Below, one piece after another: positions 3,721-36,136 of a stretch of DNA of 64,000 nt. The translations under genes and the position numbers were made by a program. Under the pieces are notes generated by a model, which made no database searches, had not been told where the DNA came from, and saw only the letters and a program-made list of their open reading frames with translations. Each line of letters starts with the position of its first letter. Positions within the stretch are counted from its first letter, which is position 1. The DNA is from Actinoplanes lobatus. Lineage in GTDB: Bacteria; Actinomycetota; Actinomycetes; Mycobacteriales; Micromonosporaceae. The stretch spans positions 6,382,501 to 6,446,500 of the forward strand of contig NZ_JACHNC010000001.1 of assembly GCF_014205215.1 (NCBI RefSeq), given 5' to 3'.

Positions 3721-4561
3721 TCAGCACTGACCGTCGGCGAGCACGTAATGGTTCGGGCCGGTTCGGCGCAACGTGTGGAAGACGAAGGTGTTCCACAGGC
3801 CCATCGCCTGGCCGGAGCCGTTGGCGAACGTGTTGCCACCGGACTGCGTGGCCCGCCCGGCGACCGTGTGCGCATAGTTGCTGGCGGTGAAACATGGCTG
3901 CGATGTGCTCGGCGACGTCGACACCGACGGTGTGGGTGACGGCGGTGTGGTGCCGCTGGGCAGGCCCCACGACTGGGCGATGTAGTACGACGAGCAGATC
4001 GAGGCGAGGTAGTACGAGCCGGTCGTGCCGCACTGGTTCTCGGCGCTGCCCGGAGCGACCGGCGTGCCGTGCCCGATGCCCTGCACCCGGTAGAGCGCCA
4101 CGGCGTCCTGGTAGTACTCGACAGTGGTGGAGCCCGGCAGCGTCGCCGTCGAGGTCGCGGTCTGCGGGACGCCCCACACGTTCGTCCACTGGTCACGCAG
4201 TTCGGTGGCGTTCGCGGGCACTACGGTGGTGTCGACAGCGCGTTGTTCGACGAGGTCTGTTCGGGAAGACGACGGCCGCCCGGTAGAGGTCGGCGTACTT
4301 GGGCCAGCCGGAGTGGCTGTAGTAGTCCTGGGCGCTCTGGGTGCATCCGTGCAGCGCCACCACCAGCGGGCGGCCGGCGGGCAGCCCGGTCGGCACGTAG
4401 AAGTACATGCGCAGGGCGCCCGGGTTGCTGCCGAACGAGCCGACCTGGGTGAGCGTGGCGGCCGCGCTGGCGGGGGAGACGGGGGAGAGCGGAGACAGGG
4501 CGAAACTGGCGACGGTCAGCACCGCGACGAGCAGCACCGACCCCAATCTGCGGGGATTCAT
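3721..4561 (-). pseudogene. Broken secreted PHB-depolymerase/feruloyl-esterase-type enzyme
   Basis: The 5' part, from ATG at 4561, encodes a signal peptide (MNPRRLGSVLLVAVLTVASF...ASAA) and the start of an esterase domain with the oxyanion motif VVALHGCTQ and DLYRAAVVFP. A one-base frameshift near 4264 switches frame to PEQTSSNNA. Several hundred bases are then missing, including the GxSxG nucleophile. The 3' part (from about 4221) resumes with ELRDQWTNVWG, retains the catalytic-His-like GIGHGTPVAP, and ends in a Pro/Ser/Thr linker plus a C-terminal binding module (CFTASNYAHTVAGRA...YYVLADGQC-like). Intact relatives are secreted polyester or feruloyl esterases of over 400 residues. With a frameshift and no nucleophile this copy cannot be active. 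Confidence 0.85.
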
Positions 4562-4629
4562 GCTCGCGAACGTTGCGATCCTGTGAACCAGGCCGGAACG
4601 TGTGCGATCGCCACAACCCGTCATTCATC

Positions 4630-6484: not shown

Positions 6485-6673
6485 ATGAGCAGATCCGGCG
6501 GTAAGGAATCCTCGATCAACAAGGTGATCCAGGAACTGGCGAAATGTGATGTCGCCGGACTTCGTGGCGATTCGCGGGACGCGGTCGCGGAGCTGAAAGA
6601 CGTCGTCGACCGGATCTCCCGGATCCGGCGGGGCGAGATCCGGATCGTCGCCGCCGGGCGGTGGCGTCGATGA
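6485..6673 (+). CDS. Small protein: N-terminal segment of split dynamin-like GTPase
   Basis: This 62-residue frame encodes a helical leader (NKVIQELAKCD...ELKDVVDRISRIRRGEI) followed by IRIVAAGRWRR. That is exactly how the first beta strand and the opening of a Walker A loop look in bacterial dynamin-like GTPases (RIVVAGR...GKST). The frame ends at TGA 6671-6673. The ATG of the next frame, at 6670, overlaps this stop as ATGA, and the next frame continues with MKSTTLALLLG. The break therefore falls inside the P-loop. It could be a real frameshift mutation, a programmed -1 shift, or two coupled polypeptides. The start at 6485 has no strong ribosome binding site. Confidence 0.6.
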   Translation: MSRSGGKESSINKVIQELAKCDVAGLRGDSRDAVAELKDVVDRISRIRRGEIRIVAAGRWRR

Positions 6674-8394
6674 AGTCCACCACCTTGGCGTTGCTGTTGG
6701 GCCGCCGCTCCGTGTTGCGGATCGGGACGGGATCGGTGACCGCCGCCCCGACCGAGTTGCGGCTGGTCCAGGGCGACAGGCCGACCGGGGCCGGTAGCGT
6801 GCAGATGCTCACCGAGACCGAGGCCACCGCGCGGGCCCGCGACCTGCTCGGCCTCGGCGTGGACGACACACGGACCCTGACCGAACTGGCCACGGTGGAC
6901 CACCGCAATCAGCCGCTCCTGGCCGGGATGGTGCACAGTGCGGAGCTCTTCGGGTTCGGGACCCGGCACGATCTGGAGACCTATCTGACCAGCTGCGAGA
7001 AGGCCGGCGGCGACCGGATCGGCGATTTCGGCGCTCCGCTGATCCAGCGGATCGAGATCGACGTTCCGGTCCCGGCCGAGGTCTGGGATCTGTCCTGGGC
7101 CAGGGGCCGGGCGGTGACGCTCGTGGATCTGCCCGGTACCGGTGAGGGCCGGGCGCTGGAGAACCTGTTCCGGGACCGGCAGCAGGAACTCGCCCACATC
7201 GCGCTGAACATCGTGGCGGTCACCGGCGGTTCGTCGTTCACCCCGCCGGTGTTGCGCGGCTCGCCGAACTGCGTGTTCGTCGCCACCAAGATCGACCGGG
7301 TGGAGCAGCCGGAGCACCCCAACGAGGTACGGACCATCGAGGCGGCCGTCGCGGAGTGTCTCGCCGAATGGCGGATCGGCTCCCGGCGGGCCAGGGTCGC
7401 CGCGGTCAGCGGCATGTGGGCGTTCGCCGACGAGGCGTCCTGGCGGGAGTTCGATCCGGAGAATCCCACATGGCACGAGGCGCAGGCCAAACGGGCGGCG
7501 TGGGCCGCGGCCGGATGGAGCGACCCGGGTGCGACCGCCGGAGAGTTCCGTGCGGCTGTCGAGGCGGCCCTGGCCGACGGCGGTTCCCGGCGTCTGCGCG
7601 ACCTGATCGAGGAACTCGCCGATCCCGGCGACGCGCGGATCGACGAGATGGAGGAGCAGCGGCTGCTGGCCCGCGCCGACGAGCTGATCGAGCAGGTGCT
7701 CGCGGGGGACGCGGCGACGGTGATCGGCGACGTCGTGGTCCTGCTGGACCGGTCGGAGAAGGACCCCGAACCGGTCTACGACCTGCGCCGCGTCGCTGAG
7801 GAGCACGCCGTCACGGCGATCTACGACCGCCCGGAGTGGGAGACGATCCGCCGGTTGTTCCGTGCCGACGGATCGCTGCGGGTGCCGCTGGAGGATGTTC
7901 GCACGCTCCTCGCGGCCATTGACCTGGGCGAGGTCGCCGGCGCCGTGATCCGCGACGCGACCACCGAGATGGACGACGTCCTGCGTGACTGGGCACGGCC
8001 GTACCTCGATGCGGTGCACGCCGACGCCGGGCAGCTCAGCGGGACTCGGGCGGGGAAGACGACCGGTGACCCGGCCGGCCGTTTCGTGGAGCTGTCGCGG
8101 GGGCTGTTCCGGGTCCTGACCGACAGCAGACGGGTGGACCTCGGTGACGGCCGTGCCCCGGCCCCGTCGAGCTTCACCTTCCAGCAGGTCGCCAGGGTCC
8201 GTGACGAGCTGGCGTTGCTGCTGGCGCGGATTCTCATCGACCTGCTCAAACCGGCGACCGAACTCGCCCGCACCGAGGTGCACGACGCACTGAGCAAGCC
8301 GGCCGCCCGGGGCGCCGCCGACACGGTGCAGCGCCAGCTCCGCCGGGTCCAGACCACGCTGCGGACGATGGCCCCGAGGCGGGCGTCGACATGA
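6670..8394 (+). CDS. Dynamin-like GTPase, main part (SrfC-like)
   Basis: The 574-residue product starts in the middle of the P-loop (MKSTTLALLLG), followed by VTAAPTEL (switch I-like), VTLVDLPGTGEG at residues 150-160 (G3, DxxG) and FVATKIDRV at 204-211 (G4, TKxD). The remaining 350 residues are helical, as in dynamin-like large GTPases that remodel membranes. The family resembles SrfC-type proteins that pair with SrfB-type ATPases. The canonical Walker A glycine before Lys-Ser is replaced by Met, and the start of the loop is encoded in the preceding frame. A GTG at 6661 is an alternative start. The gene overlaps the next one by ATGA at 8391-8394. Confidence 0.75.
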   Translation: MKSTTLALLLGRRSVLRIGTGSVTAAPTELRLVQGDRPTGAGSVQMLTETEATARARDLLGLGVDDTRTLTELATVDHRNQPLLAGMVHSAELFGFGTRHDLETYLTSCEKAGGDRIGDFGAPLIQRIEIDVPVPAEVWDLSWARGRAVTLVDLPGTGEGRALENLFRDRQQELAHIALNIVAVTGGSSFTPPVLRGSPNCVFVATKIDRVEQPEHPNEVRTIEAAVAECLAEWRIGSRRARVAAVSGMWAFADEASWREFDPENPTWHEAQAKRAAWAAAGWSDPGATAGEFRAAVEAALADGGSRRLRDLIEELADPGDARIDEMEEQRLLARADELIEQVLAGDAATVIGDVVVLLDRSEKDPEPVYDLRRVAEEHAVTAIYDRPEWETIRRLFRADGSLRVPLEDVRTLLAAIDLGEVAGAVIRDATTEMDDVLRDWARPYLDAVHADAGQLSGTRAGKTTGDPAGRFVELSRGLFRVLTDSRRVDLGDGRAPAPSSFTFQQVARVRDELALLLARILIDLLKPATELARTEVHDALSKPAARGAADTVQRQLRRVQTTLRTMAPRRAST

Positions 8395-11186
8395 TCGCCG
8401 AGCCGCCAGGCCCGGAACTGCACCGTTCCGCCGAGGTGGCCCGGCTCGTCCTCAGGCCGGGGACCGTTCCCGGCGTCGTCGAACGCGTCGATCTGCTCGA
8501 CGGCGCGTCGACCGTCTCCACCACCCGATTCGCGCCGGCCGTCGACGTGGGCGGGCGAGCCACCCGGCTGGACCTGACCCCCTGGACGGGCACACCGGGT
8601 GAACCGACGCTCGTCGTCTACCACCGCAGCCGCCAGCCGGGCTGCCGCGGCGTCCCGCCGCTGTCCCGGGCCGCTTTCCGCCTCGACCCGACCGATATCA
8701 AGGAGCCGGTGATGACCCACCCGGAAACACCCGAGGACCCGGCCGTCGCGCCCGAACGTGCCGTCGTCGGCGTCGCGGCGACGGTCGACTTCGGCAGCAC
8801 CCGCACCGTCGGCGGCGTGCACGATCTCCGTTCGGTCTTCTACCGCCCCCGGCAGTTGCCGGAGGAGGCCCGGCGGCGGGCGGCCGAGGTGGGCGCCTTC
8901 ACCTACGACGCCGACAGCGACCCGGCCCTGCAGATCGAGGCCAAGACCGACTTCGACCCGGCCGTACGGGCGCGAGCGTGGCGTGAGGTGCTCGGCTGGC
9001 CGCCGTTGGCCCGCAACCACCTCGCCGCCACCCGGGCGGTGAGCAGCGACATCGTCGTCACCGACGGGGTCGTCGGGTTCGCCGAGGAGACCGTCGGCGA
9101 CGCGTCGCGGATCCGGGGCAGCAAGCGGTACCTCGCCGACCTCGACCGGGAGGTGCCGGGAACCGGGATGACCGGCCGCGACCTGTTCCCGCGCATCTAC
9201 CGGCGGTTCCTGGAACTCGTCGTCGAGGAGCTCGACCTCCCCGCCGGGCCCCGGTGGCTGAGCGTCACGTTCCCGACCCGGCTGCCACCGGACCGTCGTG
9301 ACGCGCTTCTCGAACTGCTCGAGAAGGACCAGATCGCGTCGCAGATCGACATGCGCATCGACGAGGCGGCCGCCGCGGCCAGCTTCTACCTGCTCAAACG
9401 GTTCGGCAACGACGCGGTCCTGGGCGTCGAGGCGTTCCGTCTGCACGCCCGGTGCCCGCAGGGATTCCGGGCCTGGGACGAGCCGGAGACCTGGGACGCG
9501 GCCCGCGAATGGCACGAGAACCTGCTGGTGATCGACGTCGGTGGCGGCACCACCGACTGTGCGCTGGTCAAGGTGGCGGTCGCGGACGTCGGCCCGCCCG
9601 GAGCCGGCAACAACAGCCCAGGCCGTTACTACCGGCTCCAGCCGCAGGTGACCGCCTCCGGCGGCCGGCTGCATCTCGGTGGCGACCTGCTGACCCTCTC
9701 CATCTACACGCTGCTCAAGCAGCGGTACGGGCTACCCGACAGCGCCACGAAGTTCGCGGGCGTGGAGGAACAGATCGGCGCCGAGCGCCGGACCGCCTTC
9801 GAGACCCTGTGGAAAGCCGCCGAGCAGGTCAAGAAGATCGGACTGGGGGACGAGGAGCCGCGCCGTGTCGACGTCGTCTTCGGCACCGGCACGGGCGGCG
9901 ACCGCAACACCGTGCACGTCGCGGTCGACAAGCTCGGGAAAGGACACGGCGACGGCAAGGCCGACCGGCTGATCGCGATCACCGCGGAGGACCTGGCCGC
10001 GATCGTCGACGACGTGGCGCTGCGGGTCGCCACGCTCGCCACCGGTATCGCCGCCGGCGGCCTGCACACGCTGCGGCCGACGGGCGACAAGACCCCGTAC
10101 GCCGAGCAGGCGGTCGACGCGGTGCTGCTGTCCGGCGGGTCGATGCTGGGCACGGCCCTGCGTCTGCGGCTCGAGGACGCGCTGCGGGAACGGTTCGCCG
10201 GCGACGGACTGGACCCGGGTTTCGAGCTGCACTTCGACGAGACCTACTGCAAGGTCGGCACGGTGCTCGGCGGCATGTACCTCAACGCGGTCAGCCGGTT
10301 CAGCCCGCACCCGGAGGACCCCAAGGTGGTCGCCGGCCTCCTGAACGGCCGCTCCTTCTTCGGCGTGGACGTGACCCGGCTGCACACCAACCTGGCCGCC
10401 GACTTCTTCGTCCAGCACGACGCCGAGGGCGCGGACTGGTCGGAGCCGATCTTCCGGCGCGGCGACGCGCTGACCGGTCACGGCTCGGCCGCCTACGCCG
10501 TCAGCGGCTCCTACCCGCTGATCCCGCACATCCTGGTGCACCGCTTCGACGTGAGCCCGGGCGCGGACGCCGACCAGCACAGCGGTACGGGCACCGCGGT
10601 GACCGTGTGGGCCGAGGACGATCTGCAGTACCAGCTCGCCGGCACGCTGGCCGGGCGGGGGATCAACATGCGTTTCGAGATCGACCAGGACGAACGGATC
10701 ACCCTGCAGATCGGCCGGGGAACCCCGCGCCCGGTGCTCGACGGCGAACCGGCCGTCACGGCCCCGGACGCGCCCACCGACCTGGTCCGGGACCGGACGC
10801 TCGTCCGTGACCTGTGCCTGGACGTCGTCAACGCCGGTATCGGCGTCCTGGACCTGGAACCGGGCGACTACCTGATGAGCGCGGGCACCCGGGTCAATCC
10901 CGGCGGCACCGTGCTGGCCGTCGACGGCCGGCTGCTGTACGCCGCCACCCCGGCCGGGACCCCGGACCTGCGGTTCGACCTGCTCCTGGAGATACCGGCC
11001 GGGCACCGCTGGTTGTCCATCGACGAGGGCGGCGTGCTGCGTACGCATGAGAAGCGGCCGCGACTGCAGACCGTCGACCGCCTGGAGGAACTGCTGACCG
11101 CGGACGAGGGCACCGTGTTCCAGCGGCGGCTCAACTCGCCGTCGCACTTCGACGAGGAGAAGGACCCGTTCAATGGCACGCGGTGA
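8391..11186 (+). CDS. Hsp70/actin-fold ATPase (SrfB-like)
   Basis: This 931-residue protein has three Hsp70-like nucleotide-binding elements: ATVDFGSTRT near residue 134 (phosphate 1), LLVIDVGGGTTDCALV near 380 (phosphate 2) and VDAVLLSGGSMLG near 577 (adenosine). The C-terminal third is beta-rich. The combination with an adjacent dynamin-like GTPase resembles the SrfB/SrfC pairs of Gram-negative virulence-associated loci. The frame overlaps the GTPase stop by ATGA. An internal ATG at 8712 has a perfect AAGGAG six bases upstream, and the first 107 residues show no known domain, so translation may instead, or also, start there to give 824 residues. It overlaps the next gene by 14 bases. Confidence 0.75.
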   Translation: MIAEPPGPELHRSAEVARLVLRPGTVPGVVERVDLLDGASTVSTTRFAPAVDVGGRATRLDLTPWTGTPGEPTLVVYHRSRQPGCRGVPPLSRAAFRLDPTDIKEPVMTHPETPEDPAVAPERAVVGVAATVDFGSTRTVGGVHDLRSVFYRPRQLPEEARRRAAEVGAFTYDADSDPALQIEAKTDFDPAVRARAWREVLGWPPLARNHLAATRAVSSDIVVTDGVVGFAEETVGDASRIRGSKRYLADLDREVPGTGMTGRDLFPRIYRRFLELVVEELDLPAGPRWLSVTFPTRLPPDRRDALLELLEKDQIASQIDMRIDEAAAAASFYLLKRFGNDAVLGVEAFRLHARCPQGFRAWDEPETWDAAREWHENLLVIDVGGGTTDCALVKVAVADVGPPGAGNNSPGRYYRLQPQVTASGGRLHLGGDLLTLSIYTLLKQRYGLPDSATKFAGVEEQIGAERRTAFETLWKAAEQVKKIGLGDEEPRRVDVVFGTGTGGDRNTVHVAVDKLGKGHGDGKADRLIAITAEDLAAIVDDVALRVATLATGIAAGGLHTLRPTGDKTPYAEQAVDAVLLSGGSMLGTALRLRLEDALRERFAGDGLDPGFELHFDETYCKVGTVLGGMYLNAVSRFSPHPEDPKVVAGLLNGRSFFGVDVTRLHTNLAADFFVQHDAEGADWSEPIFRRGDALTGHGSAAYAVSGSYPLIPHILVHRFDVSPGADADQHSGTGTAVTVWAEDDLQYQLAGTLAGRGINMRFEIDQDERITLQIGRGTPRPVLDGEPAVTAPDAPTDLVRDRTLVRDLCLDVVNAGIGVLDLEPGDYLMSAGTRVNPGGTVLAVDGRLLYAATPAGTPDLRFDLLLEIPAGHRWLSIDEGGVLRTHEKRPRLQTVDRLEELLTADEGTVFQRRLNSPSHFDEEKDPFNGTR

Positions 11187-11985
11187 ATCGCTCGCCGACG
11201 ACCTGGCCCGCGACCTCGGCGAGGTGCTCGGGCAGCCGGTCGCGGCGGCCGGGTTCACCGGTCGCCGCGACGGTGCGGTCGCCCCGCTGATCGGCCTGCT
11301 CGCCGAGGCCGACCCGCTGACCCGGTCGATGGCGGCCCGGCTGGCCGCCGAATGGACCGCGGCCGGCAGCGTCGACAGCGTCCGCCCGGCGGAGTTCACC
11401 GCACCGTCCGGCTACGAGTTCCCGACGCTGCGTGCCGGTGAGACCACCCTGCTCACCGGGCTGCGAACGGTTCCCCCCACCGACGGCGACGGCGCGGCCG
11501 GTACGGTCGGCCGGCTCGCTGACACCGCCGCGATGCTGCTCGGCGGTGTCGCCGAGGTGGTGCTCATCGAGCCCGGCCGGCCCGCCACCCAACGGGTGCC
11601 CGGGTGGCTGGCCCGATTGCGCCTGCTCACCATCCGTGACGAGGTGAAGGCGGAGCCGGCCGACCAGTGGGCGGTGGCGACCCATGAGGCGGTCTCGTCG
11701 GTGTACCTGCCGTCGGCGCGGCACGGTTCGCTGTGGCGTGATCTTCTGGGTGCGCTCACCGCGTACACGATGAGGGTTTTGATCGAGAACGGCAGTGACG
11801 TGCAGGCCGACCTGTTCCGCCGCGACGACCCGAGCTTCCGCAAGTACATCGATCTCGCGCGATGTTCGGTGCTGTCCGGCCATCCTCAGGCCAACGGGCA
11901 TGTGCTCCAGGTGGTGCGACCGCCGCGCATGGCCGGTGGCGACCTCACCCCCGGCTACGCGCTGCTGGCGCCGGAAGGAAACTGA
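11173..11985 (+). CDS. Unrecognised protein of the GTPase/Hsp70 operon
   Basis: The 270-residue product is acidic-to-neutral and soluble, with no signal peptide or membrane helix. I recognise no domain. It has a helical N-terminus (DDLARDLGEVL, LIGLLAEADPLTRSMAARLAAEW), a beta-alpha central part containing EVVLIEPGRP and LARLRLLTIRDEV, and a C-terminal SVLSGHPQANGHVLQVVRPP. It overlaps the ATPase gene by 14 bases and ends one base before the VWA gene's start, so it is almost certainly translated with them. By analogy with SrfA in srfABC loci it could be a third partner of the ATPase-GTPase pair, but no sequence similarity was established. Confidence 0.7.
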   Translation: MARGESLADDLARDLGEVLGQPVAAAGFTGRRDGAVAPLIGLLAEADPLTRSMAARLAAEWTAAGSVDSVRPAEFTAPSGYEFPTLRAGETTLLTGLRTVPPTDGDGAAGTVGRLADTAAMLLGGVAEVVLIEPGRPATQRVPGWLARLRLLTIRDEVKAEPADQWAVATHEAVSSVYLPSARHGSLWRDLLGALTAYTMRVLIENGSDVQADLFRRDDPSFRKYIDLARCSVLSGHPQANGHVLQVVRPPRMAGGDLTPGYALLAPEGN

Positions 11986-11986
11986 G

Positions 11987-12658
11987 ATGCCGGTCTTCCC
12001 GATCTACATCCTGGCCGACCGGTCCGCGTCGATGGCCCACGCCGCCGGGCCGGTCACCGCGATCACCGTCGTCAACGAGGTGATCCGGGACCTGCTCGCC
12101 AGCCTGTCCCGCGACCCGACCATCCGGCATCAGACCCGGATCTGCCTGGTCTCCTTCGCCGACGACGCCACCGTCGACCTGCCGCTGACCCGGCTGCACT
12201 CGACGACCGCCGTACCCGAGCTGAAGGCGAGCGGGCCCACCTCGTTCGCCGCGGCGTTCGACCGGCTCGCTGCCGCGCTCCGGGCGGACCTGCCGGTTCT
12301 CGGCCCGCACACCGACACGATGGTCTTCATGCTCACCGACGGGCAGGCCAACTCGTCGCGCGACGTGCGGTGCGGCTGGCAGAGCGAGTACGACGCCATG
12401 CTCGCCGCGGCCGGCGGTGCGGGCCGGTTGCGGCTGATCCCGTTCGGCTTCGGCCAGGTCCACACGGCCACCCTCACCCGGCTCGCCTCCGACCCGGCCG
12501 CCGCCTACATCTCCGCGCACGCCGCCCAGCCGAGCGAGGCCATCCGGCGGTTCGGTGAGCTGATCCTCAAATCGGTGGTGTCGAGTGTGGTGCACGGAGA
12601 ACCGCGTACCGTCGCGCCGCCCGGCAGCCAGGTTCTCGGCGAGCCGGTGGAGCCGTGA
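11987..12658 (+). CDS. VWA-domain protein (TerY-like)
   Basis: The 223-residue protein is almost entirely a von Willebrand factor A domain. The MIDAS metal site is complete: DRSASM at residues 10-15 (DxSxS), the threonine of SGPTSF near 83, and LTDGQ near 110. The C-terminal half (PFGFGQVHTATLTRLA...FGELILKSVVSSV) resembles TerY proteins of tellurite/stress gene clusters. The start ATG at 11987 follows GAAGGAAACTGAG, whose GGAA can serve as ribosome binding site. Its stop overlaps the phosphatase start. TerY, PP2C and kinase genes commonly form a triad, in which the VWA protein is thought to be the phospho-regulated or scaffold partner. Confidence 0.85.
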   Translation: MPVFPIYILADRSASMAHAAGPVTAITVVNEVIRDLLASLSRDPTIRHQTRICLVSFADDATVDLPLTRLHSTTAVPELKASGPTSFAAAFDRLAAALRADLPVLGPHTDTMVFMLTDGQANSSRDVRCGWQSEYDAMLAAAGGAGRLRLIPFGFGQVHTATLTRLASDPAAAYISAHAAQPSEAIRRFGELILKSVVSSVVHGEPRTVAPPGSQVLGEPVEP

Positions 12659-13494
12659 TGTCGGACCTGCCCAACCTCGGCGTCACCGACCGGCCCTGGC
12701 TGGAACCGCAGCTCTACCGGGGACCGGTGAACACCGTCCCGCCGGCGCTCGCCTACGACGGCGGCCAGGCCGGAGCACTCACCGTCCGGGCCGGCACGGT
12801 CGCCGGTGAACAGCGGCGGCCCTGGCACACCGGCAACGACGCGTTCGCCGTCTGGACCGACCCGCACGCTCGGATCTGCCTGCTCGCCGTCGCCGACGGG
12901 GTCGGCACCGACGAGGCGGCCGGCCGCGCCGCCCGGTGGGCCACCGGGTACGCCGTGAAATCCTGCCGGACCCGCCACACCCCCGGCGCCGACCTGCCCA
13001 CCCTGCTGCGCGGCATCTTCGGCGACATCGACGCCAGCCTCGCCACCCACGTCGCCGAGCCGATGACCACGCTGACCATCGCCCTCGTCCCCACCGCCGT
13101 ACCGGCCGGCGGCGCGGTCACCGCCGCCGTCGCCGCGGTCGGCGACTCCACCGCCTGGCTGATGCGCGGCGGCCGGGTCACCCCGCTGTTCGGCACGCGC
13201 GCGGCGAGCCGGCCGGCCCCACCCACCTTCGCCCTGCCCGGGCACGGCCACCGGCTCACCCTGCGGGAACCGGTGCTGCACGACGGCGAGACGCTGATCC
13301 TCGCCACCGACGGGCTGCTGAGCGGCGATCCGGACGAACGGGCGACCGGATTCCTCGCCCGGATGTGGGCCGTGCCGCCGACCCCGCTGGACTTCCTCGC
13401 CGCGCTCGGCGTACGCCGGCCCGACCGTGACGACGATCGCGCCGCCGCGGTGGCCTGGATCGGCCACCACGACCTGCCCGTCGGCGCCACGTGA
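12658..13494 (+). CDS. PP2C-family serine/threonine phosphatase
   Basis: The 278-residue product has the PP2C metal-binding aspartates in GNDAFAVW, LLAVADGVGTDEAAGRAA, ILATDGLLSGD and the C-terminal RDDDRAAAVAW. The fold acts as a manganese- or magnesium-dependent phosphoserine/threonine phosphatase. The ATG at 12658 shares a base with the VWA stop (TGATG); a GTG at 12655 is an alternative. The stop overlaps the kinase start as GTGA at 13491-13494. Its natural substrates are probably the kinase and VWA proteins encoded beside it; that is an inference from the triad. Confidence 0.85.
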   Translation: MSDLPNLGVTDRPWLEPQLYRGPVNTVPPALAYDGGQAGALTVRAGTVAGEQRRPWHTGNDAFAVWTDPHARICLLAVADGVGTDEAAGRAARWATGYAVKSCRTRHTPGADLPTLLRGIFGDIDASLATHVAEPMTTLTIALVPTAVPAGGAVTAAVAAVGDSTAWLMRGGRVTPLFGTRAASRPAPPTFALPGHGHRLTLREPVLHDGETLILATDGLLSGDPDERATGFLARMWAVPPTPLDFLAALGVRRPDRDDDRAAAVAWIGHHDLPVGAT

Positions 13495-14987
13495 TCGAAC
13501 CGGGCTGGTGGCTGATGGCCCTGATCGTGGCCGGCCAGATCCTCACCGCTCCGGTCCGGCGACTGATCGGCCGCCGCCGCGACGAGGCCGGCCACCTCTA
13601 CCAGGCGGCCGCCGAACTGCGCCGCCGCGCCGCCGCCAGACGTGCCGGACACTCCGGCGCCCGTCGCGCCGACCCGGCGGCCGCCGCCGCCCGCAAGCTG
13701 CGGCGGCGGGCACGGCAGGCCCGGTCCGACGGGGTCACCGCCCTGTGCGGGCTGATCATCATCTGGCTCGGCGCCCAGATCACCGTGTGGCGTGCCGAGG
13801 TCAACGCGGACTGGGACGGGCTACCGCTCGACACCGACCGGGTGGCGACCGTCCTGACGGCCACCCTGCTGACCGGGCTGCTGTGGCTGTGGTGGGCGTT
13901 GCGCCGCGCCGGGGACCCGGCGGCCCGCGACCGGGCGCTGGCCCACACCCTGTCGCTCGCCGTGGCCGGCGCGGTCCTGGCGCTGATGTTCGGGCCCGCG
14001 CCCGAGACGACCGTGCTCAGCGCCGCCGCCGTCGCGCTGTCCCCCATCTTCCGGCGGGCCGTCGAACTCACCAGCGCACCCCGCGTTGCCGTACCGCTCT
14101 CCGACCGGGCGCGGGAGCTGGCGGACGGGTCCACCACCAGCGGCCGCACCGAACTCCTCGACGTGGTGGCCGCCGAACGGGTCCGGCACCAGGAAGCCAT
14201 CGGCTGGCACGAGCACATCCGGGCCGCCACCATCGACGGGGACCCTCGATCGTTCGTTTACAAACAGTTCAGCGCCGACGGACGGCGGGAGCTCAAGCCG
14301 TACCTCAAGATGTTGTCCCGGATCAACCGGCTGCAACCGGACCGGCGGGATCTCGCCGCACGGATCCTGCTCTGGCCGGTCGCGGTCGTCGCCGACGGCG
14401 ACACCGCCACCGGAGTCCTCTACGAACGGATCACCGCACCGTTCCTGCTGGTCGGCGGCGATCTGCAGACCGGTGACTACCTGTGCGACGAGGAGCCTGA
14501 CTACACCGGCAGCCGCCGCACGACCGTCCGGCAGCGCGCCGAGATCGCCCGCGACGTGGCGGCCGCGCACGAGTTGCTGCACTCGCTCGGGCTGGCGCAC
14601 GGCGACACGGCCTGGAAGAACTTCGCCTACGGGGTACGCGGCGACACCGGTGTCGGTCTGCTGATCGACACCGACGGGGTGGTGGCCGCGGGGGACCGGG
14701 AGGCGCCGCGGATCCACCAACCGCTGTGGGAGACCCCCGACGGGTTGACGCCGGCACAGCGCGACCTGGTACGGGTCGCGCTGCTGACCGCCCGGCTGGC
14801 CCATCCGGAACCCGACCTGTCCGCGGCGGGACCACCGGCGAAAGTGGTGCCGTGGTTCACGCCCGAACTGCGCGCCCTGGTCGAACGGATCCTGGCCGCC
14901 CCGACGCAGGGTTCGATCGGCGACCTCACGGACGCGCTGCGCGGCGCGGTCGCGGTGTCCGACCGCCGGAGCCCGGCGCGACCATGA
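13491..14987 (+). CDS. Membrane-anchored protein-kinase-like protein
   Basis: The 498-residue protein has hydrophobic helices at about residues 7-22, 82-100, 117-137 and 151-168, with an Arg-rich cytoplasmic loop between the first two. The C-terminal half is kinase-like: FVYKQF with Lys258, HGDTAWKN with Asp372 and Asn377 as the catalytic loop, and LLIDTDG at 390-396 in place of DFG. These match the divergent kinases of TerY/PP2C/kinase triads. It starts with GTG overlapping the phosphatase stop and ends the operon, abutting the convergent YdeI gene. The protein would tether phospho-signalling to the membrane, where a dynamin-like GTPase could act. Confidence 0.8.
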   Translation: MIEPGWWLMALIVAGQILTAPVRRLIGRRRDEAGHLYQAAAELRRRAAARRAGHSGARRADPAAAAARKLRRRARQARSDGVTALCGLIIIWLGAQITVWRAEVNADWDGLPLDTDRVATVLTATLLTGLLWLWWALRRAGDPAARDRALAHTLSLAVAGAVLALMFGPAPETTVLSAAAVALSPIFRRAVELTSAPRVAVPLSDRARELADGSTTSGRTELLDVVAAERVRHQEAIGWHEHIRAATIDGDPRSFVYKQFSADGRRELKPYLKMLSRINRLQPDRRDLAARILLWPVAVVADGDTATGVLYERITAPFLLVGGDLQTGDYLCDEEPDYTGSRRTTVRQRAEIARDVAAAHELLHSLGLAHGDTAWKNFAYGVRGDTGVGLLIDTDGVVAAGDREAPRIHQPLWETPDGLTPAQRDLVRVALLTARLAHPEPDLSAAGPPAKVVPWFTPELRALVERILAAPTQGSIGDLTDALRGAVAVSDRRSPARP

Positions 14988-32287: not shown

Positions 32288-35200
32288 TCAGCCGTCTTCC
32301 GGGTGAGGTGCGGAGCCGGTGCCCCGCAGAAGCTCACCGATCTGCTGAGCGAGAGGTGTGAGCCCGACCTTGGTCGCTGCCGCGAGGCTCTTCTCCCATA
32401 CCTTTCGGGCATCGTCCGGTTTTCCATAGGCGGTGAGAAGCACACCGAGGTTGGCTCCCACGACAGCAAGCCCGTCGGGCCGTCGCAAGCGATCGAAGAT
32501 CTCGAACGCCTTGAGCATGTTGGACAACGCTGAGGGGAAGTCCTGGCGTTGCACCTGGATCTGCGATATGCCCCAGGTGGTGGTGGCGATGCCCTCCATG
32601 TCGTTCAGCCGTTCGGCCGCCGGCAGCACCATTTCGAGGCGGATACGGAGTGCTTCGTCGTAGTCGCCACGCTCGAAGAGGATCTCGGCGATTCTTTCCC
32701 AGTTGAGAGCGATGGCGCGGGTGTCGCCGAGTCGCTGGTAGACGGGTAGCTGGACCTCTTGGCGGATGCGGAGCGCATCATCGGACTCGCCACGCTGGTA
32801 GCGGATGTCGGCGATCTTTCCCCAGGTGACAGCGATGGCGCGGGTGTCGCCGAGTCGTTGGTAGACGGGGAGTTCGATTTCGTGGCGGATGCGGAATGCT
32901 TCGTCGAAGTCGCGGCGCTGGTAGCGGATGTCGGCGATCTTTCCCCACGTTATGGCGGTTTCGCGGGTGTCGCCGAGCCGTTGGTAGACGGGTAGCTCGA
33001 TTTCGTGGCGGATGCGGAGCGCTTCGTCGTACTCGCCACGCTGGTAGCGGATGTCGGCGACAGCGCCCCAGGCGATGGCGGTGGAGCGGGTGTCGCCGAG
33101 TCGTTGGTAGACGGGTAGTTGGACCTCTTGGCGGATGCGGAGTGCTTCGTCGTACTCGCCACGCTGGTAGTGGATGTCGGCGATTCGTCCCCAGGCGATG
33201 GCGATGGCGCGGGTGTCGCCGAGTCGTTGGTAGACGGGGAGTTCGATTTCGTGGCGGATGCGGAGCGCTTCGTCGTAGCCGCCACGGAGGAAGAGGATCT
33301 CGGCCAGATCCCCCCACGCCGTTGCCGCCTCACGTTCGGATCCCGCGGTGGTGAACATTTCGCGGGCCTGGTTCAGCAACTGTTCGGCCTGTTCCAGCGC
33401 ACCCCGGGTGATCAGGAGCTTGGCGTGTTCGCCAGTGACTCTGGCGTGGGTCAACGGGTCGGCCGCTTCACCTTGGGCCGTGACCTGCTGGACCGCCTGC
33501 TCGGAAAGCGCGACCGCCGTGTCACCGTCGCCGCTGATCTGTGCCGCGTCAGCAACATTGCGCAACAACCAGACCGGCGCAGACCTGGCGCACCGGTCGA
33601 GCACGGCGAGAGCCTGCTGCCCGAGCGCAAGCGCCTGCTCCGCCGGGCCCGCAAGCAGAGCCCGCACCGCGTCCCCGGAGCACAGCGCGACCACCGTCGG
33701 GTCCTCAGCCATCACCGCCAGCCGGGTGAGTTGTAGATCCAAGGCGGCGTTCCAGGTTGGTTGCTCGTCGGTGCCACCCCACGCGGTCAGCAGAGGCCGG
33801 ACCACCGCAGTCGCGAGTTCGACCTGTTCAGCATCCGTCAGCGGGGTGAGCCGGCCGGCGGCCAGGGCGTTGACCGCGGCAGCGGTCGCCCGCTGATCGC
33901 GGGCGTCGGAGAAGGTGTCGGCCAGCCCGAGACCGCAGAGCCGCCGCACCGACCCGAGGGTGCGGCTTTCCAGCAGGTCGGTGACGGCCGCGGGCATCGG
34001 CAGTTCGAAGAGGGTCAGCGCTCGCAGCAGGGCGATGTGGGCGGCCCCGGCCTGCTCGATCAGCGCATCCAGAGCCAGGTTCTCCACGAATGCGCGGATC
34101 TCGGTGTCCGCCGGTAGATCGCCACGATCGAGGTAGCTCTCGATGTCGGTGACCGCCTGTTCGGCCCGGGCCAGGTCGACCTGCGGGCTGTAGACCAGCC
34201 GCAACACGACCAGATCCTGTAGGCCGGGGTTGCCCCGGCTCACCGCCACCGCCCGTGCCGCCAATGCGGTCCGCGTCAGCCGCAATCGTTCGGACGGCAC
34301 GGCCTGCTGCCGCACCGCCAGCTTCCGTCGCGCCACCTCGGTCAACGGCGCCAACTGCACTCGCTCCAAACGATCCGGCAGTCCGTCGAGCGTGAACACG
34401 AACCGGCTGGTCAGGATCAATCGGCTGTCACCCCGTTCCGGGTCGAACGCCCGCAGTACCGCCGCCAGCACCGGCGCATGGCGGCCGGACACCCGGTGCG
34501 GGCCTTCCTCCTGTGGCTCGAGGACTTGTTCGAGGTCGTCGATGATCAGCAGTAGCGGCCGTTGCCCGTCGCTGCCGGGCTGGGAACAGGGGCCGGACAG
34601 CAGATCCACCAGCAGCCACCGCAACGCCTCCGGCTGGTCGCGCACCTCGGCCCGTTTCGCCTCGATCAACGACCGGGCCGCCGCGTTGTCCTCCACCGCT
34701 GCCGCGATCGCCTCCAGAATCCCCATCGCGGTGTAGTCGCCGAACACCACCGCCACCGCGCGGTCGCCGAACCGGTCCGCCAACCGTGCCGCCAGACTCG
34801 ACTTGCCCAACCGGCCCTGGCCGTGCAGCAGCACCCCGGCGTGCTCGTTGCCGCGCAGCGCTCGCAACGCCCGCCGCATCTCCCGGCGCCGGCCGACGAA
34901 CATCTCCGCCGTGGCCACCGGCACGTGCCGGCGCTTGAGGTCCAGGAACGTCTTCGTGCCGTGCAACGCCGACGTCCACTGCCGCTTGCGTGTTCCGGCG
35001 ACCACCGGCCCGCCGCCGGCCGGGCCCAGCCAGATCCGGGCCAGGTGCCAATCCGCCCGCAATCGCGGCTGCTCACAGGCCAGCAGTTTGCGGCGAGCGT
35101 CACCGACCGCCGTGGCCAGGTCCAGCCGTCGCCCCAGGCGCTCGTAGAGATGTCGCGCGAACAGGGTCGCGGCGCCGTCGGTGACCGACCCGTCCCAGCC

Positions 35201-36136
35201 GACCACGGCGGGCACCCCGGCGCGCACCAGGCTGGTGGACAGCGAATGCGCCACCGGCACCACCTCGATGGTGCCGGCATCGCTGTCGGGCGGCTTGCCG
35301 GGGGAGCGGTGATCCTCGCCGGGAGGCAGGTAGCCTTCCGCGTCCGCCGGGGTCGCGGTCAGGCACGCCGAGACGAACATCAACCGTGGCATCACCGACA
35401 ACCGGCCGATGAGATCGGGCGCCGTCACCGGCAGGCCGTCGCCGACCTCGTCCTCCATCATCAGCACCGGCACCCGAGGTCCGTCCGGAGACGTCGGCCA
35501 GCTGTTCACACCGTGGCAGGACAGATGCAGCACCGGAAGCCCGCCGAGGTCGGCCCACCGCAGGCCCAGCTGCTCCGGATCGCCGGTGTCCTCCACCACC
35601 AGGTCTGCCCGGGTATCGCCGACCGCGGTGAGGATGGCCGACTCCTCGGCCTCGAAGTCGAGTTCCCGCTGCCGGTGCGGGGCCGAGGCCATGAACATCA
35701 ACCCCAGCCGGTACTCGTCAAGCGGTGTAGCGTCCGTCGGCGTCCCCAGGCGGCGAACCACCTCGAACCGGCGTATCCCGTCGGCAGCCAGGAATCCGGT
35801 CTGGTCGGCCAGTACCTCCCACGGCGCGCGTAGCACCGCCCACCCGGCCGTCGACGGCGACTGCGGCGCCCGAACCTCGAACACGAGCGGTGCCGTCACC
35901 TGTTCCAAACAGGTGCTCAACCGTCCTCGGCCGCCGTCGATCCAGTCGAACAGCTCCCGGCCCAGCTCTACGAGAACCGCATCGTCGGAGCCCGCATGCA
36001 CCGCGTCCACATACCGGCCGGCGACATCGAGCAGCAACTTGACGTCAGGGGCGCCCAGTGGCCGTCGGGCACCCACCGGCACGCCGTCGACCAGCACTTC
36101 GAAGCCGGCGTCATCCAGAACCAGACCGGTAGTCAC
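32288..36136 (-). CDS. CHAT-protease / STAND-NTPase / TPR protein
   Basis: The 1282-residue product has three modules. Residues about 80-370 are a CHAT caspase-like protease with catalytic His208 (LHLSCHG) and Cys258 (FVSACLTAT). Residues about 410-800 form a STAND-type NTPase with Walker A GQGRLGKS at 439-446 and Walker B LLLIIDDLEQ near 529-537. Residues about 940-1260 are TPR repeats of 41 residues, several nearly identical (RGEYDEALRIR-EIELPVYQRLGDTR). This is the layout of sensor-switch-effector immune proteins: repeats sense, ATP-dependent oligomerisation activates, the protease cuts. It lies just upstream of the giant TPR gene, with which it may form an operon. Confidence 0.85.
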   Translation of the reverse strand: MTTGLVLDDAGFEVLVDGVPVGARRPLGAPDVKLLLDVAGRYVDAVHAGSDDAVLVELGRELFDWIDGGRGRLSTCLEQVTAPLVFEVRAPQSPSTAGWAVLRAPWEVLADQTGFLAADGIRRFEVVRRLGTPTDATPLDEYRLGLMFMASAPHRQRELDFEAEESAILTAVGDTRADLVVEDTGDPEQLGLRWADLGGLPVLHLSCHGVNSWPTSPDGPRVPVLMMEDEVGDGLPVTAPDLIGRLSVMPRLMFVSACLTATPADAEGYLPPGEDHRSPGKPPDSDAGTIEVVPVAHSLSTSLVRAGVPAVVGWDGSVTDGAATLFARHLYERLGRRLDLATAVGDARRKLLACEQPRLRADWHLARIWLGPAGGGPVVAGTRKRQWTSALHGTKTFLDLKRRHVPVATAEMFVGRRREMRRALRALRGNEHAGVLLHGQGRLGKSSLAARLADRFGDRAVAVVFGDYTAMGILEAIAAAVEDNAAARSLIEAKRAEVRDQPEALRWLLVDLLSGPCSQPGSDGQRPLLLIIDDLEQVLEPQEEGPHRVSGRHAPVLAAVLRAFDPERGDSRLILTSRFVFTLDGLPDRLERVQLAPLTEVARRKLAVRQQAVPSERLRLTRTALAARAVAVSRGNPGLQDLVVLRLVYSPQVDLARAEQAVTDIESYLDRGDLPADTEIRAFVENLALDALIEQAGAAHIALLRALTLFELPMPAAVTDLLESRTLGSVRRLCGLGLADTFSDARDQRATAAAVNALAAGRLTPLTDAEQVELATAVVRPLLTAWGGTDEQPTWNAALDLQLTRLAVMAEDPTVVALCSGDAVRALLAGPAEQALALGQQALAVLDRCARSAPVWLLRNVADAAQISGDGDTAVALSEQAVQQVTAQGEAADPLTHARVTGEHAKLLITRGALEQAEQLLNQAREMFTTAGSEREAATAWGDLAEILFLRGGYDEALRIRHEIELPVYQRLGDTRAIAIAWGRIADIHYQRGEYDEALRIRQEVQLPVYQRLGDTRSTAIAWGAVADIRYQRGEYDEALRIRHEIELPVYQRLGDTRETAITWGKIADIRYQRRDFDEAFRIRHEIELPVYQRLGDTRAIAVTWGKIADIRYQRGESDDALRIRQEVQLPVYQRLGDTRAIALNWERIAEILFERGDYDEALRIRLEMVLPAAERLNDMEGIATTTWGISQIQVQRQDFPSALSNMLKAFEIFDRLRRPDGLAVVGANLGVLLTAYGKPDDARKVWEKSLAAATKVGLTPLAQQIGELLRGTGSAPHPEDG
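32685..33299 (-). repeat. Direct repeats of 123 bases encoding TPR units
   Basis: Five copies of a 123-base unit run head to tail; the same landmark string (GGGTGTCGCCGAGTCG and close variants) recurs at 32719, 32842, 32965, 33088 and 33211, exactly 123 bases apart. Each encodes a 41-residue TPR-like unit. Two variants of the core alternate: HEIELPVYQ and QEVQLPVYQ. Identity at synonymous positions points to recent duplication or gene conversion. Confidence 0.9.

Follow-up and report, generated by a model that had tools for sequence, protein, structure and literature searches.

In SrfB-type cassettes (srfABC; PF07520), an SrfB-type ATPase is encoded next to a GTPase of the dynamin type and a further, third protein; to our knowledge, their function has not been established. 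They are among the nearest counterparts of the Actinoplanes lobatus operon analysed here, which lies in a stretch of 64,000 nucleotides (GCF_014205215.1, NZ_JACHNC010000001.1, 6,382,501–6,446,500 of the forward strand; termed "the window", with coordinates counted within it) of a 10.4-Mb chromosome labelled G000. Other described systems share parts with it, and of the published ones the GAP1-N2 systems come closest. Among these, as presented in the sections of Kaur et al. 2020 (PMC7159879) drawn on here, one theme, amounting to ~10% and confined to actinobacteria, features a protein kinase, in many cases carrying a zinc ribbon or transmembrane (TM) helices, usually beside a PP2C phosphatase and a stand-alone vWA protein; another theme features HSP70 and GrpE, the Hsp70 and kinase themes do not overlap, and the authors propose a regulated assembly near the membrane. 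TerY-P triads likewise consist of adjacent VWA, PP2C and kinase genes and, according to the excerpts used of PMC11090510 (which cites Anantharaman 2012 and Gao 2020 for the triad), often accompany Hsp70-containing defence systems (CoCoNuTs), their kinases ending in zinc ribbons or oligonucleotide/oligosaccharide-binding (OB) folds. The A. lobatus operon unites a core of the SrfB-cassette kind with a TerY-P-like triad, and we propose, at what we consider even chances, that its six genes encode one phosphorylation-switched, SrfB-type nucleoside triphosphatase (NTPase) machine which would work at the membrane and carry its own on/off switch.

The six genes follow each other in one direction on the plus strand at 6485–14987, in the order GTPase–ATPase–third protein–VWA–PP2C–membrane kinase, with ends that overlap or almost touch:

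6485..8394, plus strand: dynamin-family GTPase, one gene in two frames (6485–6676 and 6661–8394); intact, with 636 amino acids (aa), in A. flavus
8391..11186, plus strand: SrfB-type actin/Hsp70-fold ATPase, 931 aa (motifs VDFGS, IDVGGGTTD and LSGGS; profile-profile match)
11173..11985, plus strand: third subunit (270 aa), probably related to, but shorter than, the third protein of SrfB cassettes (hhalign; position in the gene order)
11987..12658, plus strand: stand-alone VWA protein, TerY-like, 223 aa (PF13519 7.7e-10 and PF00092 1.1e-9, over the cut-off)
12655..13494, plus strand: PP2C protein phosphatase, 279 aa (PF13672 2e-16, over the cut-off)
13491..14987, plus strand: membrane kinase, 498 aa (AlphaFold2/Foldseek; conserved residues; hydropathy)

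The GTPase and ATPase genes share a 4-base ATGA overlap, the ATPase and third genes overlap by 14 bases, a gap of one base separates the third gene from the VWA gene, and 4-base GTGA overlaps join VWA to PP2C and PP2C to the kinase. A scan for promoters and terminators, uninformative for actinobacteria, gave no signal above chance. The original prediction had counted seven linked frames; the tight, one-directional cluster was borne out, whereas the number of genes falls to six, since the GTPase frame is broken before its P-loop.

The operon is real, conserved and rare. Its six-gene order is also present in A. flavus (genome G019, locus L012) and in locus L072 of genome G789, taken to be Microtetraspora, while Actinoplanes genome G007 carries at L008 a diverged five-gene copy, GTPase–ATPase–VWA–PP2C–kinase, without the third gene (names of genera and families were inferred for several relatives, one genus being taken to be Streptomyces on account of its chaplin genes and another being perhaps Nocardia). 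Flanking open reading frames (ORFs) matched window ORFs in six of eight cases in L012, in one of ten in L072 (weakly, to a distant window gene) and in none of twelve in L008. The set is thus conserved beyond A. lobatus while its flanks vary, and a gene order confined to this genome, which the original prediction had named as speaking against a single functional system, was not what was found. Chance clustering was rejected, because the order is kept across families; dN/dS against A. flavus, at 0.14–0.36 for the five intact genes (details below), likewise speaks against chance. The PP2C gene of L008 (7532–8236), skipped by the ORF caller, rests on tblastn and on a match of the PP2C profile to the translated stretch (2.2e-11); both DG motifs are lost, and its product may therefore be a pseudo-phosphatase.

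The first three genes correspond one by one to those of the recurrent SrfB-type cassette, as judged against actinobacterial sequences. In profile-profile comparison the ATPase matched actinobacterial SrfB-type ATPases with prob 100 (E 1.6e-74), which places it among them. PF07520 itself passes its cut-off in the relative L037; on the window ATPase the Pfam scan gave no PF07520 match at E≤1. Across all 16 rows of an alignment that includes the window, the central residues of the ATPase's actin/Hsp70 phosphate and adenosine motifs do not vary, simple motif patterns having missed motifs in several ATPases. Of the SrfB/SrfC-like pair suggested initially, the SrfB half accordingly stands; the domain scans of the operon proteins and their relatives listed neither an SrfC-type match for the GTPase nor any SrfA-type match, proteobacterial sequences lying outside the comparison (the SrfC family is also named Virul_Fac). 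The GTPase was correctly called a member of the dynamin family: Dynamin_N matches the window protein with 0.002, under the Pfam cut-off, and exceeds that cut-off in L072 and L008. Its hhalign prob was 99.5 over 481 columns against the GTPases of the broad group of SrfB cassettes and 76.4 against those of a tubulin-type cassette described below. The G1, G3 and G4 motifs were found in eight aligned relatives; most rows have a standard G3 and G4, the deviations being DTPG in L072 and TFLD, a changed G4, in L008. In seven of the eight, a Met replaces the last Gly of the P-loop, directly before the Lys (G-x-x-[AG]-[SA]-M-K-S-T); the diverged L008 protein is the sole aligned copy with Gly at that position.

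The third protein had been listed as unknown in the original prediction, which missed that it is a probable short relative of the SrfB-cassette third protein. Its C-terminal 149 columns match the latter with an hhalign prob of 92.7 (E 4.4e-7), compared with 2.0 or less for two reversed profiles and six unrelated families of the same loci, and its gene holds the same place in the gene order. The AlphaFold2 model of the protein (predicted local distance difference test, pLDDT, 37.1) is useless as a structure. Compared with the SrfB-type cassettes, the operon differs in that its ATPase lacks a PF07520 match of its own, its third protein is shorter, and the VWA/PP2C/kinase triad is added.

Outside the clade of the operon, 48 distinct SrfB-type matches were obtained at the E limits used. 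Matches of this kind were present in 15 genomes out of 354, in 18 out of 341 and in 8 out of 392, a few per cent of the large actinobacterial genomes searched. Neighbourhoods were covered for 45 of them, leaving out G651, G804 and G805. A gene matching the GTPase profile adjoins the ATPase gene in all 45 loci, 43 of which also have the third gene, in the order seen in the operon (L048 lacks it and L127 stops at a contig edge); by the ORF calls used, it lies up to ~1 kb from the ATPase gene in several loci. The GTPase and ATPase profiles were built from 20 of these loci, 16 of which also contributed to the third-gene profiles; the other 25 stood outside profile building, some of them (L107, L108) being near kin of a profile locus. 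The triad profiles detected no VWA/PP2C/kinase triad in any of the 45, two of which, L120 and L127, are truncated where their contigs stop, and a lone PP2C gene in L039; since they overlooked a VWA protein of L010 that is visible to Pfam, the result denotes the absence of a TerY-like triad, not of any VWA protein. In the clade of the operon, by contrast, the triad is present at four of four loci, which represent three separate lineages (the window and A. flavus being near kin) and two families. In a tree of 40 ATPases, a branch supported at 100/100 sets the 16 rows of this clade apart from the others, a grouping favoured by the fact that the clade's rows had been picked as close relatives. The simplest history would be that a SrfB-type core gained the triad once.

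A second kind of SrfB-type cassette was observed in L010, L011, L038, L040, L041 and L043, with GTPase, SrfB-type ATPase and third gene, and a Ser/Thr kinase gene close by; it forms a separate clade in the ATPase tree. In L010, the one locus of this kind checked with Pfam, the third gene is followed by genes for a VWA protein (501 aa) and a Tubulin_2 protein. Such operons share the GTPase, the SrfB-type ATPase and the third gene with the A. lobatus operon, which has the triad where L010 has the VWA and Tubulin_2 proteins.

The triad assignment of the original prediction was confirmed, with the specification that the triad is TerY-P-like: VWA and PP2C rest on Pfam matches, the kinase on Foldseek and conserved residues. 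The residues of the metal ion-dependent adhesion site of the VWA protein are complete, D11, S13, S15, T85 and D118 being kept in four of four sequences. The metal-binding Asp residues of the PP2C protein are present, the motifs DG, GDS, DG and DDD occurring in all three aligned sequences. No Pfam or NCBIfam model matched the kinase over its cut-off, but its AlphaFold2 model, when compared with the PDB by Foldseek, retrieved protein kinases with prob 1.00, E values of ~1e-6 to 1e-5 and template-modelling scores by query of 0.32–0.38 among the matches listed, and the residues K258, H370, D372, N377 and D393 (K, HxD..N, D) are kept in four of four sequences. By a hydropathy threshold, hydrophobic segments lie at residues ~81–99, 118–136 and 149–167, with the kinase-like domain C-terminal to them. 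Adjacency of VWA, PP2C and protein kinase genes is what the operon has in common with TerY-P. In the portions of PMC11090510 used, TerY-P triads stand beside larger defence cores, including those of Hsp70-containing CoCoNuTs, and have a C-terminal zinc ribbon or OB fold on the kinase, as opposed to the N-terminal TM segments of the operon kinase. The Pfam scans gave neither zinc ribbon nor OB fold on the latter, although the low confidence of the model leaves room for a small extra domain; we hence speak of a TerY-P-like rather than a TerY-P triad. PADLOC produced only weak matches in the operon (MkoA, 0.026, on the kinase; PDC-M61B, 0.065, on the ATPase), and it was blind to the VWA and PP2C genes of another TerY-P-like triad in the same genome.

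We read the six genes as one machine because their order is retained in the window, L012 and L072 despite differing flanks and, in the five-gene form, in L008; because the core matches a recurrent cassette to which the triad is added in the operon clade and nowhere else among the loci covered; because key residues are kept in the ATPase, the VWA protein, the kinase and the three aligned PP2C proteins, and the kinase has a hydrophobic N-terminus; and because kinase, PP2C and stand-alone vWA are also attached to GAP1-N2 systems in the sections of PMC7159879 used. In such a machine, dynamin-family GTPase, SrfB-type ATPase and third subunit would form a core whose assembly is driven by nucleoside triphosphates. 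The membrane-anchored kinase would phosphorylate a core component, most likely the GTPase or the ATPase, and PP2C would dephosphorylate it; the VWA protein might bridge triad and core through metal-dependent binding, and membrane signals would decide if assembly takes place. The membrane remodelling suggested in the original prediction may apply, and a role in stress or in defence against invaders is plausible.

Several observations weigh against this proposal. The reversible switch is not universal, given the G007 copy without third gene and with a PP2C protein devoid of DG motifs. GTP hydrolysis is not assured, in view of the Met in the P-loop of most copies, and the GTPase gene is broken in A. 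lobatus itself; the GTPase profiles of other cassettes match, within the triad clade and at a limit of 1e-3, only the A. flavus protein. The kinase model has a mean pLDDT of just 60.5, and no known effector domain was seen in the operon. For the third gene, direct profile search (hmmsearch) retrieved nothing reaching 1e-3, so that its match is a profile-profile one, with a clade profile built from three sequences; it reached a prob of only 2.5 against the third gene of the tubulin-type cassettes, which is itself related to that of the broad SrfB cassettes (prob 99.3). Neighbourhoods were covered for just four loci of the triad clade. Among the 16 clade rows in the tree, a triad was seen directly for those of the window, of L008 and of P0006 (presumed identical with L072), as it was for A. 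flavus, whereas 13 rows come without a covered neighbourhood; according to a warning from the tree program, the long branch of L008 could be placed wrongly.

Core and triad also occur apart, which would suit two modules on one transcript, i.e. a SrfB-type cassette and a stand-alone TerY-P-like stress or defence triad, inherited together without acting on each other. Outside the clade, 11 kinase matches were obtained and the loci of seven covered; with the same triad profiles, six of these Actinoplanes loci (L096, L097, L098, L100, L101, L102) showed complete triads without the GTPase–ATPase core and the seventh (L099) a partial triad, just as the 45 other cassettes, with the reservation made for L120 and L127, lack the triad. 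However, the pairing at all four loci of a deep ATPase clade in two families, the overlapping start and stop codons across the operon, and the retention of both modules in the five-gene copy make mere co-inheritance an unlikely account. Membership in the GAP1-N2/DO-GTPase conflict systems is suggested by the shared kinds of parts: GTPase, Hsp70-fold ATPase, TM kinase, PP2C and stand-alone vWA, all in actinobacteria, as far as the excerpts of Kaur et al. 2020 (PMC7159879) go, with their Hsp70 and kinase/PP2C/vWA themes. Yet the GTPases of the window, L072 and L008 match Dynamin_N rather than DO-GTPase, the ATPase is SrfB-type and not a classical Hsp70, and neither GAP1-N2, GAP1-M, GAP1-C nor DO-GTPase was matched at E≤1 in the seven window frames, the six proteins of L072 or the four scanned proteins of L008. 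The same models did detect a real system in the same genome, at ~10.053–10.058 Mb of contig C1, where GAP1-N2, -M and -C fall on one protein and DO-GTPase2 on both neighbours, one just under the cut-off (PF19993, 6e-16, in the DO-GTPase control). This sole GAP1-N2 match of the genome lies 3.66 Mb from the operon. We therefore rejected membership, which we regard as highly improbable.

The break in the GTPase gene raises the question of whether the A. lobatus copy is decaying and non-functional. The frame is interrupted just upstream of the P-loop, whereas the A. flavus gene (L012 7094–9004) is a single frame of 636 aa and the other seven aligned relatives are single-frame as well; for this reason two separate GTPase genes and a programmed frameshift, which the relatives do not need, were both rejected. 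Relative to A. flavus, the ratio of nonsynonymous to synonymous substitution rates (dN/dS) is 0.51 for the GTPase part after the break, as against 0.25 for the ATPase, 0.16 for the third gene, 0.14 for VWA and 0.36 each for PP2C and kinase, with 0.26–0.28 for two flanking genes; a nearby gene is shortened as well. On the other hand, the remaining ~1.7 kb of the GTPase gene contains no further stop, and the downstream genes are all intact. The break may be a sequencing or assembly error or a real lesion, which would look alike. We consider decay in A. lobatus a serious possibility, though short of probable, and it would say nothing on the function of the family.

A housekeeping or developmental envelope machine under phosphorylation control, serving for instance membrane fission or sporangium formation without a role in defence, would also make use of dynamin-family and actin/Hsp70-fold NTPases and of a membrane kinase, and the hosts are morphologically complex. 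The very patchy distribution fits this poorly. Full-length members of the ATPase clade were found in three (G000, A. flavus and G007) of 354 genomes from the family to which A. lobatus belongs, one of 341 of a second family (G789), none of 392 of the genus taken to be Streptomyces and none of 150 of another genus; 394 genomes of the class yielded the own genome only (the genome sets overlap, so that these counts are not to be summed). A second search for Streptomyces members, in 150 genomes, retrieved only three genomes, all met before. A scan of genome contigs with the ATPase alone gave one distinct locus, in A. flavus, and tblastn against plasmids gave no match. In the protein database, 28 matches to the ATPase include named members from Streptomyces (S. 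flavofungini, S. alboflavus, S. spongiae), Nocardia (N. takedensis), Microtetraspora and Thermopolyspora, P0025–P0028 being more remote; of these named members, the neighbourhood was covered for one, L072. The corresponding searches retrieved at least seven proteins with the GTPase and, with the third gene, only itself; as just the candidates sharing most words were scored, both family sizes are understated. No orthologous empty site could be defined by way of the flanking glycosidase, its matches outside G000 being only 35–47% identical among those listed. Given this patchiness, an accessory stress or conflict system fits better than a housekeeping one, which we think improbable.

Searches of the openly licensed PMC literature brought up no description of the six-gene set, in agreement with the original prediction, which knew of no single named system; what it had missed is the GAP1-N2 parallel, in which the sections used of PMC7159879 link a GTPase with Hsp70 or with the triad. 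As far as the searches show, the combination of SrfB-type cassette and TerY-P-like triad is new, although its published neighbours are clear. Past one oppositely oriented gene from the GAP1-N2 locus mentioned above, the A. lobatus genome encodes a classical Hsp70 (PF00012, 6e-71) and a VWA/PP2C/kinase triad (L101). This triad presumably belongs to the GAP1-N2 system, judging by the published theme that pairs such triads with GAP1-N2:

L134:4784–11182 and L101:3647–11657 (G000:C1 ~10.053–10.069 Mb): GAP1-N2 system with Hsp70 and, presumably, the triad (domain models and triad profiles)

One genome thus has the same kind of triad at a SrfB/dynamin operon and at a GAP1-N2/Hsp70 cluster, which suggests a shared control logic. 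More tentatively, and with a likelihood that we put below even, the operon may represent an actinobacterial system for conflict or stress that has had no name so far: a SrfB/dynamin-type NTPase machine would have gained a kinase/phosphatase/VWA switch in parallel to the GAP1-N2 systems that use a like switch on another GTPase-centred core. The triad clade offers a direct handle on the SrfB-type cassettes, for identifying the core protein that is phosphorylated would show which step is regulated, and A. flavus, a cultured actinomycete, has an intact copy of the operon.

Among the triads without the core, those of L096 (3545–10973) and L098 (9341–15956) lie beside two other large genes (~680 and 550–580 aa) with no match to the GTPase profile; the second of these is VWA-like by profile, without a Pfam match in L098, where the kinase gene is on the opposite strand. 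Upstream of the operon, the gene at 3721–4624 of the window seems shortened, its A. flavus version being one frame of 390 aa (L012 4694–5866), of which the DNA alignment skips ~345 bases. Further downstream, window positions 32288–36097 encode a 1269-aa protein with a TPR-repeat match among the PADLOC models (2.5e-11).

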